NCBI RefSeq assembly: GCF_000702205.1
Contig: NZ_KL370871.1
Location: 1 to 64,000, forward strand
Length of the DNA stretch: 64,000 nucleotides
Origin: Lachnospira multipara LB2003
GTDB lineage: Bacteria > Bacillota > Clostridia > Lachnospirales > Lachnospiraceae
Direction of reading: 5' to 3'
A program made the translations under genes and the position numbers. Positions 3,564-9,503 of the stretch are shown here, in pieces. The notes below the pieces were generated by a model that saw nothing but the letters and a program-made list of their open reading frames with translations, did not search any database and was not told the origin of the DNA. How positions within the stretch are numbered: the first letter of the stretch is position 1; each line of letters opens with the position of its first letter.

Positions 3564-4037
3564 TTAATTTTCAAAAACTAATTGTAGAGCCTGTACGTTG
3601 CTTATTTTTTGTTCTTTAATATATCCGCATGCTTTTAAGCCAGTTTCCATTATCTTACTTAATGACTGCTTAGATAAATTTAGAACTGTAGCATCATTTA
3701 GCTCAATTAAACAAGCATCATCATAATCACATGAATCACATGATAGCTTATACATATTTCCTCGATTTATAGCGCCTATTTCTTCTAGAACATTCACCAT
3801 TCTATAAACAGTTGCACTACCTATCTTAGGATCACGTTTAGATGCTTTATAATAGATTTCCTTACAACAAGAACAGTCCTCTTGTAAGATTACATCTAAA
3901 AGTATCTGACGTTGCTTGGTGATCCTGCACCCACGTTCTTTAAGTAATCTTAAAACCATGTCTTTTTGCATCTGAGTTCTTGTAAAACCCATTTCTTGCC
4001 TTTTCTTATCAGCAGAATTTTCAAGCATATTTTTCAC
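3564..4037 (-). CDS. Atypical Fur-family regulator, last gene of the feo operon
   Basis: The 157-residue protein has a Fur-like winged helix (about 28-90), including RITKQRQILLDVIL and the recognition-helix region GSATVYRMVNVLEEIGAI. The second half differs from Fur: the His-rich HHxHxxC regulatory site is missing, and in its place stand CSCC and SCDSCDYDDAC, followed by a short helical C-terminus. It may therefore sense metal through cysteines, or not at all. It is co-transcribed behind feoA-feoA-feoB and the small Cys-rich protein, so it is a good candidate to control the feo operon and the other genes with the same palindrome. That link is inference; other DNA-binding proteins elsewhere in the genome could bind these sites. 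Confidence 0.8.
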   Translation of the reverse strand: MKNMLENSADKKRQEMGFTRTQMQKDMVLRLLKERGCRITKQRQILLDVILQEDCSCCKEIYYKASKRDPKIGSATVYRMVNVLEEIGAINRGNMYKLSCDSCDYDDACLIELNDATVLNLSKQSLSKIMETGLKACGYIKEQKISNVQALQLVFEN

Positions 4038-4073: not shown

Positions 4074-4214
4074 TTAGTGGCAATGACCACCACATTTACT
4101 GCAGTCAGCACCACATTGTATTGACTTGCCACTCTTTTTATCTTTTACAAGGCTCCTTATAGCCAAGAATACAATGAGTATTAATATTGCACCTGTAATT
4201 ATATTTCCTAACAT
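4074..4214 (-). CDS. FeoB-associated Cys-rich membrane protein (46 aa)
   Basis: A short gene reads MLGNIITGAILILIVFLAIR at its N-terminus, one membrane helix, followed by a basic stretch and a tail with CGADCSKCGGHCH. It starts at ATG with TAGGAGG 6 bases upstream. This layout, a single helix plus CxxxCxxCxxxC, is that of the FeoB-associated Cys-rich family found next to feoB in Clostridia. The tail probably binds iron at the cytoplasmic mouth of FeoB, but its exact job is not established. It lies 40 bases after feoB and 36 bases before the Fur-like gene, in one operon. Confidence 0.9.
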   Translation of the reverse strand: MLGNIITGAILILIVFLAIRSLVKDKKSGKSIQCGADCSKCGGHCH

Positions 4215-4254: not shown

Positions 4255-6669
4255 CTAGATATTAGCTACTTTTTCGTTAATCTTAAGTGTCTTTGCTGGC
4301 TTGTATGGTCTAAATAATAGATATAATACACAAGCTATAGCAATAATTGCAACTATAAGACCTAATACATTTACTGAACCTGTAAATAATAATCCTAACT
4401 GATAGATTACTAATGAAACGATATAAGCTGTAGCACACTGATATCCAATAGCAATCCATGTCCACTTCTGGCTATTCATTTCTCTCTTAATAGCACCAAT
4501 TGCTGCAAAGCAAGGAGCACAAAGTAAGTTAAATGCAAGGAAAGAATATCCTGCAAGTGGTGCAAGGCCTTCAAAGTCAAGTACGCCAAATACACCTACT
4601 ACTTCTTCCTTAGCAACAAGACCCATAACTGTTGCAACAGCTGCTGTTGCATCTGCAAAACCTAGTGGAGCAAAAATCCACTTTATACCATTACCAATTG
4701 CACCAAGAACTGAGTCTGAAAGTTCAAGGTCTGGATTCCATCCAAATGATCCTTCGCTCCAACCAAATGTTGAACCAAACCAAATAATAATTGATGAAAG
4801 TAAGATAATTGTACCAGCCTTTTTAATAAATGAGAATCCTCTTTCCCACATACTTCTAAGAATAGCACCTACTGTTGGTAAGTGATATGAAGGAAGTTCC
4901 ATAACGAATGGAGCTGGATCTCCGGCAAATAATTTTGTCTTCTTTAATATAATACCTGAAAGAATAATAACAGCAATTCCAAGGAAGTATGCTGAAGGAG
5001 CTACCCACCAAGCATTATCAAATAATGCTGCTGTAATAAGAGCAATAATTGGTAACTTAGCACCACATGGAATAAATGTTGTTGTCATGATTGTCATACG
5101 ACGATCTCTTTCATTCTCAATAGTTCTTGATGCCATAACACCAGGAACACCACAACCTGTACCAATAAGAATTGGAATAAATGACTTACCACTTAAACCA
5201 AATTTTCTAAAGATTCTATCCATAATAAAAGCAATTCTTGCCATATAACCACAGCTTTCAAGGAAAGCAAGGAAGATGAAAAGTACAAGCATCTGTGGAA
5301 CGAAACCAAGAACTGCACCAACACCTGCAACAATACCATCAATAATTAAGCCTGTTAAAAATTCGTTACAATGAATTGCTTCAAGGCCATTTCCAATAAT
5401 AACAGGAACACCAGGAACCCAAATACCGTAATCTGCATTATCTGGAAGTTCTGCATCTTCTCCTGTTGCCTCATCAACTACTTCAGAAATAGAATACTTT
5501 CCATCTTCTTTTTCATCTAATTCAGCACCATATGAACCATAAGCTTCATCAAAATCTCCGAAGCTCTTATCATTAATTGTATCTAAAATATCACTAGCAC
5601 CTGTAATACCAGCATCTGCTGCAGCTTCTACATTAGCAACAACTTCGTCTGTCCATACATTCTCTTCATAATAAGCATTCATATCTTCTTCATATGCTGC
5701 TCTACCATTGCCAAATAAATAGAAACCATCACCAAATAAACCATCATTAGTCCAATCAGTAACATATGTACCAACTGTTACAACTGAAATATAATAAACT
5801 ACAAACATAATTACAGCAAAGATTGGAAGTGCTAAAATTCTGTTAGTAACAATTCTATCAATCTTATCTGATGTTGTAAGCTTCTTAGCATGATTTTTAG
5901 TTACACAACTATCAATAATTGATGAAATATACGTATATCTCTCGTTAGTGATAATTGATTCTGTATCATCATCAAATTCTTTTTCAAGCTTAGCTATTTC
6001 TTCTGATGCATCAACGTTTTGTTTTGTAAGATTTGAAACTTTATCATCTTTCTCGATAAACTTAATTGCAAAAAATCTCTTCTGCTCTTCACTTATATCT
6101 GAACCAAGCTTTGATTCTACACTACTAATAGCTTCTTCAACACTGTCTGAAAATCTATGAACTAGCTTGTTAGCCTTCTTAGAATTAGCTGCCTTAATAG
6201 CTAATCCAACAGCTTCCTTAATACCTGTTCCTTTAAGAGCTGAAATCTCAACAACCTGTGCGCCAATTACATCTCCAAGTTTCTTAATATTGATCTTATC
6301 TCCTGACTTCTTAACAAGGTCCATCATATTAACAGCAACTATAACTGGAATACCAAGTTCAATAATCTGTGTTGTTAAATATAAGTTTCTCTCTATATTA
6401 GTACCATCAACAATATTAATTACTGCATCAGGTCTTTCATTAACTAAATAATTTCTAGCTACAACTTCTTCAAGTGTGTATGGTGAAAGTGAATATACAC
6501 CTGGAAGATCAATAATCCCTACACTCTTGTCTCCCTTATATTTACCTTCCTTCTTCTCTACTGTTACACCTGGCCAGTTACCTACATACTGATTAGATCC
6601 TGTAAGTGCATTAAAAAGTGTTGTCTTACCGCAGTTAGGATTACCTGCAAGCGCGATTTTTATTGACAT
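4255..6669 (-). CDS. feoB: Ferrous iron transporter FeoB
   Basis: FeoB imports Fe2+ across the cytoplasmic membrane using an N-terminal G domain. The 804-residue protein shows G1 GNPNCGKTTLFNALTG near residue 9, the G2-region VGNWPGVTVEKKEG, G3 DLPGVYSLSP and G4 NMMD, followed by a helical regulatory domain and a membrane part with two Gate-like halves (for example CGYMARIAFIMDR and the CAPCFAAIGAIKRE region). Between the first and second membrane helices, about residues 300-425, lies a long acidic, Tyr-rich loop that should face outside, as in other clostridial FeoBs. It follows two feoA genes and precedes a Cys-rich helper and a Fur-like gene. Confidence 0.97.
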   Translation of the reverse strand: MSIKIALAGNPNCGKTTLFNALTGSNQYVGNWPGVTVEKKEGKYKGDKSVGIIDLPGVYSLSPYTLEEVVARNYLVNERPDAVINIVDGTNIERNLYLTTQIIELGIPVIVAVNMMDLVKKSGDKINIKKLGDVIGAQVVEISALKGTGIKEAVGLAIKAANSKKANKLVHRFSDSVEEAISSVESKLGSDISEEQKRFFAIKFIEKDDKVSNLTKQNVDASEEIAKLEKEFDDDTESIITNERYTYISSIIDSCVTKNHAKKLTTSDKIDRIVTNRILALPIFAVIMFVVYYISVVTVGTYVTDWTNDGLFGDGFYLFGNGRAAYEEDMNAYYEENVWTDEVVANVEAAADAGITGASDILDTINDKSFGDFDEAYGSYGAELDEKEDGKYSISEVVDEATGEDAELPDNADYGIWVPGVPVIIGNGLEAIHCNEFLTGLIIDGIVAGVGAVLGFVPQMLVLFIFLAFLESCGYMARIAFIMDRIFRKFGLSGKSFIPILIGTGCGVPGVMASRTIENERDRRMTIMTTTFIPCGAKLPIIALITAALFDNAWWVAPSAYFLGIAVIILSGIILKKTKLFAGDPAPFVMELPSYHLPTVGAILRSMWERGFSFIKKAGTIILLSSIIIWFGSTFGWSEGSFGWNPDLELSDSVLGAIGNGIKWIFAPLGFADATAAVATVMGLVAKEEVVGVFGVLDFEGLAPLAGYSFLAFNLLCAPCFAAIGAIKREMNSQKWTWIAIGYQCATAYIVSLVIYQLGLLFTGSVNVLGLIVAIIAIACVLYLLFRPYKPAKTLKINEKVANI

Positions 6670-6690: not shown

Positions 6691-6909
6691 TTATTCAACA
6701 TCTATTAATTGTGCATCTGTCTTACGTAATGAAAGTTCATATCCACGAACTGTAACCTCTATAGGGTCACCTAATGGAGCAACCTTTCTTACATAAACCT
6801 CAATACCCTTTGTAATGCCCATGTCCATAATTCTTCTCTTCACAGGGCCATCACCGTTAAGTTTCTTAACTTTAACTGTTGTGCCGATTTTAACGTCCCT
6901 TAAAGTCAT
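6691..6909 (-). CDS. feoA: FeoA-domain protein (second of two)
   Basis: FeoA is a small SH3-like cytoplasmic protein thought to act with FeoB in ferrous iron import. The 72-residue product has the family core, including KIGTTVKVKKLNGDGPVKRR, the IMDMGITKGIEVYVRKVAPLG turn region and a final ELSLRKTDAQLIDVE strand. It lies 21 bases after the first feoA and 21 bases before feoB. It differs clearly in sequence from its partner, so the two probably have separate roles and are not a recent duplication. Confidence 0.93.
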   Translation of the reverse strand: MTLRDVKIGTTVKVKKLNGDGPVKRRIMDMGITKGIEVYVRKVAPLGDPIEVTVRGYELSLRKTDAQLIDVE

Positions 6910-6930: not shown

Positions 6931-7155
6931 TTATACCATAATTTTATTAGCCATTTCTTTACCGATAGCTACTCTAGAACCCTTGATGTTGACAATTACA
7001 TTACCGCCTGTTCTTGAAATAACCTCCACATCAGCGCCGCTAACAAAACCTAACTTTTCTAAAAACTGCTTGGTTTCTTCTAAACCGCCAACTCTTTGTA
7101 TTCTAACTTTTAAGCCTTCTTCTAAAAATGATAATGGCATATAAATTACCTCCAC
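6931..7155 (-). CDS. feoA: FeoA-domain protein (first of two)
   Basis: This 74-residue protein opens the feo operon. It has the FeoA fold pattern: LEEGLKVRIQRVGG, the FLEKLGFVSGADVEVISRTG turn, and NVIVNIKGSRVAIGKEMANK, where the segment IKGSRVAIG matches the usual FeoA end. The upstream ATG is preceded by GGAGG. In Clostridia two consecutive FeoA genes before feoB are common; one is generally assumed to contact FeoB. Expression should depend on the operator over the promoter just upstream. Confidence 0.93.
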   Translation of the reverse strand: MEVIYMPLSFLEEGLKVRIQRVGGLEETKQFLEKLGFVSGADVEVISRTGGNVIVNIKGSRVAIGKEMANKIMV

Positions 7156-7185: not shown

Positions 7186-7217
7186 GTTAGTATAAGCTAA
7201 CATTTATTAGTTGTCAA
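7186..7217 (-). promoter_or_regulatory. feo promoter with palindromic operator
   Basis: TTGACA (7212-7217) and TATACT (7189-7194) are 17 bases apart on the minus strand. A perfect 16-bp palindrome, GTTAG-N6-CTAAC (7186-7201), covers the whole -10 box. Related palindromes stand at the promoters of the two neighbouring units, so this looks like a repressor site. A metal-dependent repressor is the natural guess. Confidence 0.8.
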
Positions 7218-7272
7218 GAATAATTATTAGTTTTTTCTAAATCACGTTTTACTAAACTAAGCCCCTTAAAAA

Positions 7273-7381
7273 ACCCGTGCCTTAGCATAAGAAAATATAA
7301 AGTCTAATCTCAATTAACCTAAATATTGCCTGTAATCCGAGAGCTATCCTTGACCTATTTTCCATCCTTAATGGCACGGGT
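7273..7381 (-). ncRNA. Possible structured RNA ending in a terminator, downstream of flavodoxin
   Basis: On the minus strand ACCCGTGCC is found at 7381-7373 and GGCACGGGT at 7281-7273. These nine bases can pair as a closing helix around about 90 bases, and the transcript then ends in a run of U. The interior contains AAGGAT twice, about 20 bases apart. A simple terminator would not enclose so long a loop, so this may be a structured 3' untranslated region or a small RNA released from the flavodoxin operon. I do not recognise a known RNA family. Confidence 0.45.
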
Positions 7382-7431
7382 AACGCTTTTATTTAGTTGA
7401 TATGTATGGCTTTTGTACTCACGCGCACAAT

Positions 7432-7854
7432 TTAAGCAAGCTTAGATCCAAGGGATTTAGCAGATTCTAGAGCTGCATCATCTGGTGCTTCATTGCAGAT
7501 TACAGGATCAGCTACTAAATTAGCTCCACAAGCTTTAGCTCTTCCTTCCCATTCTTCCATCCATTCGCCTGAACCCCAGCCATATGAACCAAAAAGAGCA
7601 ATTTTCTTGCCAGATAATGAGCCTTCAAGCTCTGTAAATGCTGGATCAACTTCTGTTTCTTCAAGCTGTTCAGCACCCATTGCTGGACAACCAAAAGCGA
7701 TTGCATCATATGATCCAACACTTGCTGAATTAATATCTCCAAAGCCAAGTATTGACACTTCTGCACCTGCACTCTTAGCACCTTCTGCTACTGCATTTGC
7801 AAGGCTTTCTGTATTACCTGTCTGACTCCAAAAAACTACTGCTACTTTACTCAT
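7432..7854 (-). CDS. Flavodoxin
   Basis: Flavodoxin carries electrons with FMN in place of iron-sulfur ferredoxin, typically when iron is scarce. The 140-residue protein begins MSKVAVVFWSQTGNTESLAN, with the FMN phosphate loop SQTGNTE, then AFGCPAMGAEQLEE and GSYGWGSGEWMEEW, the loops that flank the flavin ring. The start is placed at ATG 7854 because AGGAGG lies just before it; an upstream GTG would put that ribosome site inside the coding region. It follows DUF3793 and DUF2325 in the same direction, 78 bases after the former, and probably belongs to their operon, which has palindromic operators at its promoter. Confidence 0.95.
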   Translation of the reverse strand: MSKVAVVFWSQTGNTESLANAVAEGAKSAGAEVSILGFGDINSASVGSYDAIAFGCPAMGAEQLEETEVDPAFTELEGSLSGKKIALFGSYGWGSGEWMEEWEGRAKACGANLVADPVICNEAPDDAALESAKSLGSKLA

Positions 7855-7896
7855 TTTTCCTCCTTCTTCCACCTAAGTGAAAAGCAACTTTTTTAT

Positions 7897-7919
7897 ATTA
7901 AAGAAGATTCTTCTTTAAT
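7897..7919 (-). repeat. AT-rich perfect hairpin between DUF3793 and flavodoxin
   Basis: ATTAAAGAAGA (7897-7907) and its inverse (7909-7919) form an 11-bp hairpin with one central base. No U-run follows on the minus strand, so it is not a standard terminator. It may be a processing or mRNA-stability element that lets flavodoxin be expressed at a different level. Confidence 0.5.
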
Positions 7920-7932
7920 CCATATTAAAAAA

Positions 7933-8559
7933 TTATGCACCTACTGTTAGCTGACTTAATGTTCTACCATCTAAAAATACTTTTTGATAAATCTTAAAGC
8001 ATTTCTTATACTTAGCAAAAATAGCCTTTGAACGTTCTTCATTGTCATAAACCTTCCAGAAACCACAGCATTTGCAGTTTTGTCCTTTTTGTTCAATAAA
8101 GCCTATCACATCCTCTCTTGGATAGCCTAAAAAAAAGCCAATCTCATGAGGAAAGCTATCTTCCATCTCAATTCTGTTAATAAGTGTCCTAATGAATTTG
8201 TTACAAATCACAAGAGCATCACACCTATCATCTAGATTATCTAAATCCACATGATATCCATCCTTTTTAAGGGTGTTTAAAGTCTTATCATTTAACAAAT
8301 CCTTAAGTAAGCGCATTGGTCTATAAACATAAAGTAATGCTCTTGTCTTTGATATCCTAAGAACTTGTAAATAAACACCTTTTTTGTTAAGTAGACTATT
8401 CATCTTTAAAAGCTCTCTATTCATGCTATCAATAGATTCAAATTGATAGTTAAATAGGTTGGCTGTCTTTAGTCCTGCAAGTGTTGGTGCACACTCCCTA
8501 ACCAAATCAAGTTCTAATTTATTATTTACCTTAGCTCTTATCTCAATCAAATCTTCCAC
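7933..8559 (-). CDS. DUF3793 family protein
   Basis: The 208-residue soluble protein shows the DUF3793 hallmarks: RECAPTLAGLKTANLF near the N-terminus, RALLYVYR in the middle and the block PHEIGFFLGYPREDVIGFIE followed by CKCCGFWKVY. The function of the family is unknown. It often lies next to DUF2325 and flavodoxin genes in Clostridia, as here, and the shared operator with feo suggests a role in iron or redox balance. Three cysteines in NCKCCGFW could bind metal, which is only a suggestion. It begins 39 bases after the DUF2325 gene. Confidence 0.88.
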   Translation of the reverse strand: MEDLIEIRAKVNNKLELDLVRECAPTLAGLKTANLFNYQFESIDSMNRELLKMNSLLNKKGVYLQVLRISKTRALLYVYRPMRLLKDLLNDKTLNTLKKDGYHVDLDNLDDRCDALVICNKFIRTLINRIEMEDSFPHEIGFFLGYPREDVIGFIEQKGQNCKCCGFWKVYDNEERSKAIFAKYKKCFKIYQKVFLDGRTLSQLTVGA

Positions 8560-8597
8560 AACAATACCTCTTTATATTTATAATTTAACCAACAATT

Positions 8598-8885
8598 TTA
8601 TACATTCTCAAAGTACTCATCTAATACGTTGTTAAGAGATGAAGCACTGCTTGAATGTGTTCTTATAATCTCTATATCATTTTTCTTAGCTTCACTAACA
8701 GCCGATAAAACCATCTTATGTGAAACCGTATTAGTAAAAAGTATCATTAAATCTGGGTTTCCAAGTCTGTCTTTAAAACCGCTTTTTTCTTTAACAAAAA
8801 CTTTAGCCTTACAACCATGTTTCTTGCATATTCTCTCGTATTGACAAACCATACATTCGTTGCCACCAATAATTACTACGCTCAC
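8598..8885 (-). CDS. DUF2325 family protein
   Basis: The 95-residue protein starts at GTG, with GAGGAGG 6 bases upstream; an out-of-frame ATG overlaps it. It has the DUF2325 pattern VVIIGGNE, YERICKKHGCKAKVF, a PDLMILFTNTVSHKM core and IIRTHSSSASSL. The fold is probably a small Rossmann-like alpha/beta domain. Its function is unknown. It is the first gene of a unit with DUF3793 and flavodoxin and lies behind a promoter region with three copies of the GTTAG-N6-CTAAC palindrome, so iron control is likely. Confidence 0.88.
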   Translation of the reverse strand: MSVVIIGGNECMVCQYERICKKHGCKAKVFVKEKSGFKDRLGNPDLMILFTNTVSHKMVLSAVSEAKKNDIEIIRTHSSSASSLNNVLDEYFENV

Positions 8886-8939
8886 ATTTACCTCCTCATT
8901 TGCTCAAGTTAAAAATCTAGTTACATGTATCTTACGCGT

Positions 8940-9057
8940 GTTAGTTATCGCTAACTGGTGTTTTTAAAATAACGGGACATTAAGTCCCGAATATAATCCT
9001 TTATAGTTAGTATTATCTAACCACTTATAGGTTAGCATATACTAACTCCATTGTCAA
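8940..9057 (-). promoter_or_regulatory. Control region of the DUF2325 operon: -35 box and three palindromes
   Basis: A TTGACA -35 box lies at 9052-9057 (minus strand); the -10 box is not clear, TAACCT at 9029-9034 having the right spacing. Perfect GTTAG-N6-CTAAC palindromes stand at 9031-9046, 9006-9021 and 8940-8955. The first lies between the promoter boxes, the second just downstream, the third well inside the leader. A CGGGAC/GTCCCG hairpin (8973-8989) sits between the last two, before TTATTTT. Such multiple sites suggest cooperative repression. Confidence 0.72.
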
Positions 9058-9063
9058 TAGCAT

Positions 9064-9432
9064 CTACGCTTCTTTTATAGAAATAACCTTAAAGTCTAAA
9101 CGCTCAACTGCAATCCTTAAATCTTCATCGTCTAATACTCTATCATATTCAACAACGGCCCTGTTTTTCTTAAGATTTACCACAGCTCTTGCTCCATCAA
9201 TCCTATTAATAGAACGTTCCACACTATTTTTACAATTATCACAATGCATTCCCTCTATTGAGATTATCTTTTTTCCAATAATCTTGCCTTCTAATTCCTT
9301 AATTTCTGTTAGTGTAGCACTATCACTGCCACCGCCACAACATCCGCCTTCACCCTTTAGGTGTTTCTTGCTTTGTGATATAGCTAATATTACTAAAACT
9401 GCCAAAATAAGCACTACTATAACTGTTCCCAT
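9064..9432 (-). CDS. Membrane-anchored HMA (heavy-metal-binding) protein
   Basis: From the ATG at 9432 (GGAGG 6 bases upstream) the protein is 122 residues. It starts with one membrane helix (about 2-20), followed by a basic turn and the Cys-rich segment GEGGCCGGGSDSA. A heavy-metal-associated domain (about 50-120) follows, with the metal loop GMHCDNCKNSVE and the usual beta-alpha-beta-beta-alpha-beta pattern. The helix plus Cys cluster resembles the FeoB-associated small proteins, so this looks like a fusion of such a module to an HMA domain. HMA domains usually carry Cu+ or Zn2+. The palindrome at its promoter ties it to the iron group. Substrate is unknown. Confidence 0.85.
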   Translation of the reverse strand: MGTVIVVLILAVLVILAISQSKKHLKGEGGCCGGGSDSATLTEIKELEGKIIGKKIISIEGMHCDNCKNSVERSINRIDGARAVVNLKKNRAVVEYDRVLDDEDLRIAVERLDFKVISIKEA

Positions 9433-9451
9433 ATATACCTCCATAATGATA

Positions 9452-9503
9452 GTTTGTTATAACTAACCGTAATGATACTACAACTAAAGCACCATAATGT
9501 CAA
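9452..9503 (-). promoter_or_regulatory. Promoter and operator of the HMA gene
   Basis: TTGACA (9498-9503) and TAGTAT (9475-9480) are 17 bases apart on the minus strand. GTTTG-N6-CTAAC (9452-9467), one base off the palindrome seen upstream of feoA and DUF2325, starts at about +8, where a bound protein would block transcription. Confidence 0.72.

Follow-up and report, generated by a model that had tools for sequence, protein, structure and literature searches.

A conserved GTTAG-N6-CTAAC palindrome at iron-linked promoters of Lachnospira multipara and its probable DtxR-family repressor

Introduction

The described systems closest to the one considered here are the DtxR/IdeR proteins, to which a review (PMC7762939) assigns global iron regulation in GC-rich Gram-positive bacteria, the MntR proteins of Bacillus subtilis and its relatives, and the Fur/PerR/Zur family. 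The subject of the present work is a 16-bp palindrome, GTTAG-N6-CTAAC, which recurs at the promoters of the ferrous iron uptake operon feo and of neighbouring genes within the first 64,000 nucleotides of contig NZ_KL370871.1 of Lachnospira multipara LB2003 (this whole stretch is hereafter called the window). An earlier note on this DNA, made from the letters alone, had proposed that the palindrome defines an iron-linked regulon and constitutes, together with a Fur-like protein whose gene closes the feo operon, an uncharacterised operator-regulator pair. Comparative conservation and intergenic placement bear out the first part of this proposal, a real and conserved operator of an iron-linked regulon; the second part did not stand, as the switch appears to be of the known DtxR kind and the Fur-like protein was not supported as the binder. 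We read the palindrome, with a probability of about 0.79, as the single-dimer operator of a DtxR-family repressor that has Fe2+ as its main effector and represses at the -10 box; that it serves a repressor of this family, whichever the metal, is very probable.

With DtxR/IdeR the Lachnospira system shares the TTAG-N6-CTAA operator core, an N-terminal DNA-binding domain followed by a metal-binding and dimerisation domain, a Cys-Glu-His metal motif, iron-uptake genes as targets and an operator lying over the promoter. It differs in having a protein of 125 amino acids (aa) without SH3 domain, a 16-bp one-dimer unit as against a 19-bp two-dimer box, and Val or Ile at position 43, and in belonging to low-GC Clostridia and not to GC-rich Gram-positives. 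The DtxR consensus box, TTAGGTTAGCCTAACCTAA in the same review (PMC7762939), holds TTAG-N6-CTAA twice, at positions 1 and 6, hence the spacing seen in the window is that of one DtxR unit, and the window sites represent a one-dimer unit with an outer G and C; the opinion of the earlier note that the spacing does not fit the DtxR core was mistaken. The protein resembles MntR in size, in two-domain architecture and in fold (template modelling (TM) score up to 0.88), whereas MntR Asp8 is replaced by Asn in 26 of 30 sequences from the family (Asp in 4) and Glu99 by Cys in all 30, and the targets are iron genes. The MntR box differs from the present operator as well. As regards the Fur/PerR/Zur family, the role of an iron-uptake repressor is common to both and the Fur-like protein is a member; however, no Fur-box palindrome lies near these promoters, and in the Fur-like protein a CxxC is present and the usual His ligands are missing.

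In the open-access literature, no paper on an iron-response regulator of Lachnospiraceae or on a DtxR-feo pair of this family was found by title or beginning of abstract, subscription papers and regulon databases such as RegPrecise being outside this search. Lachnospiraceae are among the dominant gut bacteria; an operator, a probable regulator and a first list of targets that reaches beyond one family are now named. Furthermore, two proteins of unknown function, DUF2325 and DUF3793, become tied to iron limitation, and a DtxR-family protein without SH3 domain offers a test of the view that such members do not sense iron.

The palindrome at the feo promoter and in relatives

A pattern scan of the window returned four exact matches to GTTAG-N6-CTAAC (7186-7201, 8940-8955, 9006-9021 and 9031-9046), a fifth with one mismatch (9452-9467), and no other match with up to one mismatch; shuffled versions of the window gave 1.75 matches on average and fewer than five in every one of 100 cases. 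All five copies reported earlier were recovered exactly, and the genes assigned to them (feo, DUF2325-DUF3793-flavodoxin and the HMA gene, together with the Fur-like gene) were confirmed by Pfam. At feo, where the coding (minus) strand of the operator reads GTTAGCTTATACTAAC, the palindrome does cover the -10 box, as had been claimed: TATACT at 7194-7189 lies inside 7186-7201 and, with the -35 box TTGACA (7212-7217) at a distance of 17 bases, forms the best hit of the promoter scan (11 of 12 consensus matches). The scan gave 14 promoter-like sites in the window where 10.2 were expected, so single promoter hits prove little and the argument is carried by conservation in relatives.

A DtxR-similarity scan of named genomes yielded at least 576 confirmed relatives, and the best 80 of these loci were analysed. 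They were chosen by protein similarity only, using a query alignment of the genome's own DtxR-like protein and four relatives from loci already inspected, and seed peptides that included metal-site residues. In 30 of the 80 loci dtxR and feoA are divergently arranged, and the region between them contains [GA]TTAG-N6-CTAA[CT] in 27 of the 30, in 24 cases as the exact palindrome; dinucleotide shuffles of the same regions averaged 0.035 and never exceeded 1. When half-site spacings from 0 to 15 were tried, the dtxR-feoA regions gave hits at spacing 6 only (24 hits), and the regions upstream of DUF2325 gave 28 at spacing 6 and one at 7. The register of the promoter is retained too: of the 27 feo promoters of relatives, all have TTGAC, 26 keep the 17-base spacer to the operator-embedded -10 box, and 24 place TATACT identically within the operator. 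A dtxR gene thus adjoins the site in many relatives, which favours a DtxR-family protein over the Fur-like one as the binder.

The site is likewise kept upstream of DUF2325. For the best 30 of the 53 listed DUF2325 matches, own locus included, it was located within 400 bases upstream in 24 (exact in 18), and the reversed control in none; in four of the six loci without it, DUF2325 follows DUF3793, either within a run or as its last gene. Of 52 DUF2325 matches (the partial one of the 53 being excluded), at least 20 lie within 12 kb of a DtxR match, and such linkage counts are lower bounds. It should be added that our 20-locus sample of dtxR neighbourhoods is biased, having been chosen partly for sites already known there.

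Two further half-site patterns were observed at feo. A third half-site, CTAA, precedes the TTAG of the operator by six bases in the window and in 16 of the 27 feo promoters of relatives, where it might perhaps give a foothold to a second dimer. A palindrome, often in the form GTTAG-N6-CTAAT, was also seen between the second feoA and feoB in 12 loci of relatives (L145-L154, L156 and L160) and is absent from the window.

Co-occurrence with DtxR and sites in the own genome

Among 120 genomes of the family, a DtxR match was present in 113 and the Fur-like protein in 41, the latter counted at 60 bits or above, as weaker hits resemble PerR or Zur paralogues. The ratio of the exact motif to its reversed control was practically the same in the 41 genomes with both proteins (292/86 = 3.40) and in the 72 with DtxR only (360/101 = 3.56), and it fell to 0.6 (12/19) in the seven genomes with no DtxR match. 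Order-wide, in 146 genomes, it was 2.65 (390/147) where the DtxR match was strong (86 genomes), 0.79 (45/57) where it was weak (21) and 0.65 (55/85) where there was none (39). Outside the own family it was 2.18 in 71 genomes with a strong match against 0.70 in 60, with a Mann-Whitney p of 6e-7 that is uncorrected for phylogeny. Two of the DtxR-negative family genomes, G050 and G110 (97-99% complete), have no exact site, and neither has G074, which shows a partial PF02742 hit with an internal stop.

The own genome (2.58 Mb, 99.95% complete) has seven exact sites, four of them in the window. All seven are intergenic by a simple open-reading-frame test and stand upstream of genes, iron genes among them; the count itself is not enriched, with seven exact sites versus eight of the reversed pattern, five of the latter being copies of one repeat. 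With up to one mismatch allowed, 45 motif sites were found against 67 reversed ones, and only eight of the 38 one-mismatch sites are intergenic, one of these eight (L027) lying at the edge of its stretch, where it could not be judged. We therefore rejected the genome-wide count as proof of an operator. The one-mismatch class looks like background, and none of its sites except that of HMA was accepted into the regulon. In this genome the signal is the position of the sites and not their number. Five identical 16-bp palindromes, CAATCACAAGTGATTG, on either strand, were also recorded at G000:C1:371038, 371338, 374161, 375946 and 392959, with longer repeated inverted stretches beside them.

The DtxR-family protein

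A single protein of the genome carries both DtxR-family Pfam domains (PF01325, 40.9 bits; PF02742, 55.2 bits; both over the cut-off). It is encoded outside the window, at G000:C9:92446-92820 (L016:1489-1866), and ends at residue 125, after the dimerisation domain, leaving no C-terminal SH3-like domain; judged by its domain content, it is a member of the DtxR superfamily and not a classical three-domain DtxR/IdeR. Another match to the DtxR profile, L017, was set aside, as only the N-terminal part of this 395-aa protein is matched and by eye it has the look of a ROK-type regulator. The AlphaFold2 model, made on an L. multipara orthologue 90% identical to the own protein, reached a predicted local distance difference test (pLDDT) score of 91, with TM scores of 0.80-0.83 to IdeR/DtxR in addition to the likeness to MntR given above.

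All 30 sequences taken from the best DtxR loci among the family genomes have E13, H79, C101, E104 and H105, so that the Cys-x-x-Glu-His primary metal site of DtxR/IdeR (C101, E104, H105) occurs in every one of them. The same residues were found in 81 of 81 sequences of the wider set, a count that is not independent, as these loci were fetched with seed peptides including DACK..EH; conservation was for this reason recounted on the 30 family loci. In the alignment, MntR Asp8 and Glu99 correspond to position 10 and C101, where the own protein has Asn and Cys instead of the MntR ligands; the counterparts in DtxR are Met10 and Cys102. The Cys101 metal site together with the iron-gene targets constitutes the argument for iron as the metal.

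When Fe2+ is plentiful, the metal-bound dimer would sit on the palindrome with one recognition helix per TTAG half-site, over the -10 box, and would keep RNA polymerase off feoAAB. The same repression would apply to the flavodoxin, HMA, siderophore-type uptake and ferric-reductase-like genes. When iron runs short, the protein would be released, and ferrous-iron import and iron-sparing proteins such as flavodoxin would be made. Taken over all genomes, the sequences suggest a DtxR of the iron type, without SH3 domain and with a one-dimer operator, whose use apparently extends well past a single family of Clostridia.

Points against and alternative readings

Several observations weigh against an iron-responsive DtxR-family repressor at these sites. 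In the own genome dtxR does not adjoin feo and has no site upstream (L055). Among the 50 of the best 80 loci without divergent dtxR and feoA, a site was found within 600 bases upstream of dtxR in 13 only (three of the 50 have less than 160 bases of sequence there; in two of the 13, L167 and L219, dtxR is divergent to DUF2325 and the site lies in between), and among the 30 DtxR loci of family genomes only 16 have a relaxed site within 1.5-kb flanks. Base-contacting residues of DtxR, Gln43 for one, are not conserved, position 43 being occupied by Val or Ile. Three genomes with neither a DtxR match nor a PF02742 domain (G011, G030 and G063) have the site upstream of DUF2325; the missing match is likely due to incompleteness, these genomes being 86-89% complete. 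Motif counts are in part coding background in some genomes: of 36 sites in G086 and G088, 23 are intergenic, 18 of 19 in G088 and 5 of 17 in G086, the other 12 of the latter being inside genes. Finally, the nearest solved structures are manganese regulators of the MntR type, position 10 is a MntR-like Asp in four of the 30 sequences, and DtxR-family members without SH3 domain, as the own protein is, are, in the cases reported, not Fe2+-responsive in vivo according to the review (PMC7762939).

These last three points, along with the MntR-like size, are also what speaks for a DtxR-family binder with Mn2+, or both metals, as effector and hence a mixed Mn/Fe regulon. We hold this to be unlikely, as the targets are feo, flavodoxin, siderophore-type uptake and ferric-reductase-like genes and Cys101 occupies in 30 of 30 sequences the place where MntR has Glu. 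Far less credible still is that the palindrome arose by chance or is structural, as a hairpin, a terminator or a mobile repeat would be. In favour of this stands an exact count in the own genome that does not exceed the reversed control; against it, spacing and promoter register are fixed across 27 intergenic regions of relatives and all seven exact sites of the own genome are intergenic, which makes its probability negligible. The Fur-like protein, which the earlier note considered the natural binder, is very improbable in that role. Its gene indeed sits at the end of feo in the own and other genomes, at least 19 of 42 Fur-like matches lie within 12 kb of a DtxR match, the protein has a FUR-family fold with a conserved helix-turn-helix region, and in several relatives (e.g. 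L089, L100, L106 and L108) the site lies upstream of its own gene. This last observation suggests that the Fur-like gene is probably a member or target of the regulon. As a binder it was rejected, because the motif follows DtxR and is no less enriched in the 72 genomes without the Fur-like protein, the spacing is that of DtxR, dtxR adjoins the site, and the site between dtxR and feoA is retained in six genomes without a Fur-like orthologue, namely G007, G106 and G108, which have no match, and G056, G057 (relaxed form only) and G061, which have only hits of up to 33 bits, apparently to other FUR paralogues. From a FUR protein whose recognition helix is normal one would, moreover, expect a preference for GATAAT-type boxes over TTAG-N6-CTAA. 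The Fur box TGATAATNATTATCA, with up to three changes, has nine matches in the 64 kb and none between 3000 and 10000, and control of these promoters by a GATAAT-type inverted repeat was rejected on that ground.

The Fur-like protein itself (3564-4037, minus strand) matches the FUR Pfam domain with 48.1 bits over profile positions 1-65 of 121 only. C55 and C58 of its CxxC are each present in 10 of 11 Fur-like sequences, presumably at the place of the N-domain His, and its C-terminal half contains no HxH of the kind that belongs to the His-rich regulatory metal site of the family. The model, of moderate quality (pLDDT 77, predicted TM score 0.51), shows a winged helix at the N-terminus and, at the C-terminus, a small beta-beta-alpha-beta part; a fold search returned Fur, Mur, PerR and Zur, the best Fur, Mur and PerR hits at E 1e-4 to 1e-3, with a two-domain TM below 0.55 and a root-mean-square deviation near 10. 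The own genome has three FUR-family proteins, a PerR-like one beside a rubrerythrin-like gene, a Zur-like one beside a ZnuA-like gene (neighbours judged by eye) and that of the window, and by eye none of them resembles a typical Fur. It is conceivable, though doubtful, that in Lachnospirales the global iron switch passed from Fur to an Fe2+-sensing DtxR-family repressor without SH3 domain, and that the Fur paralogue closing the feo run now serves as a CxxC sensor of another signal, for instance Fe-S clusters or redox state, in a two-input system where DtxR would control the gene of the second sensor.

Operon composition and other candidate targets

The feo genes form one run on the minus strand, composed of two feoA copies (6931-7155, with a likely ATG start near 7140, and 6691-6909; Pfam FeoA), feoB (4255-6669; Pfam and NCBIfam), a gene for a 46-aa peptide and the Fur-like gene. 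The peptide (4074-4214), a small Cys-rich membrane one recognised from its translation, looks FeoB-associated, a family assignment made by eye only.

Also on the minus strand, three exact operators (8940-8955, 9006-9021 and 9031-9046, the last 17 bases past the end of the HMA gene) stand upstream of the genes for the DUF2325 protein (8598-8885; Pfam), the DUF3793 protein (7933-8559; Pfam) and flavodoxin (7432-7872; Pfam and TIGR01753). A terminator-like hairpin on the same strand (8973-8989) was noticed between the operators at 9006 and 8940, i.e. between the HMA gene and DUF2325. The HMA-domain protein (9064-9444, minus strand; Pfam HMA) has an N-terminal stretch resembling FeoB_associated, which scores below the cut-off of that family. 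Its operator (9452-9467, minus strand) is one change away from the exact palindrome, and the promoter scan found a promoter-like TTGACA-17-TAGTAT that ends at 9475; from the latter, the operator would be placed at about the start of transcription.

Outside the window, the three remaining exact sites of the genome lie upstream of a siderophore-type ATP-binding cassette (ABC) operon (Peripla_BP_2, FecCD and ATPase), of an operon at L023:3078-8227 and of a short ABC-transporter gene (L022:4764-5777, 337 aa). The second of these encodes a secreted protein, Ferric_reduct/FMN_bind, ApbE, NusG_II and Hpre_diP_synt_I, and possibly serves extracellular ferric reduction; the ABC-transporter gene appears, by eye, to be internally shortened. 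In two relatives (L281 and L284) DUF2325 is the first gene of a DUF2325-feoA-feoA-feoB run preceded by a relaxed site, an arrangement that ties DUF2325 directly to ferrous iron uptake.

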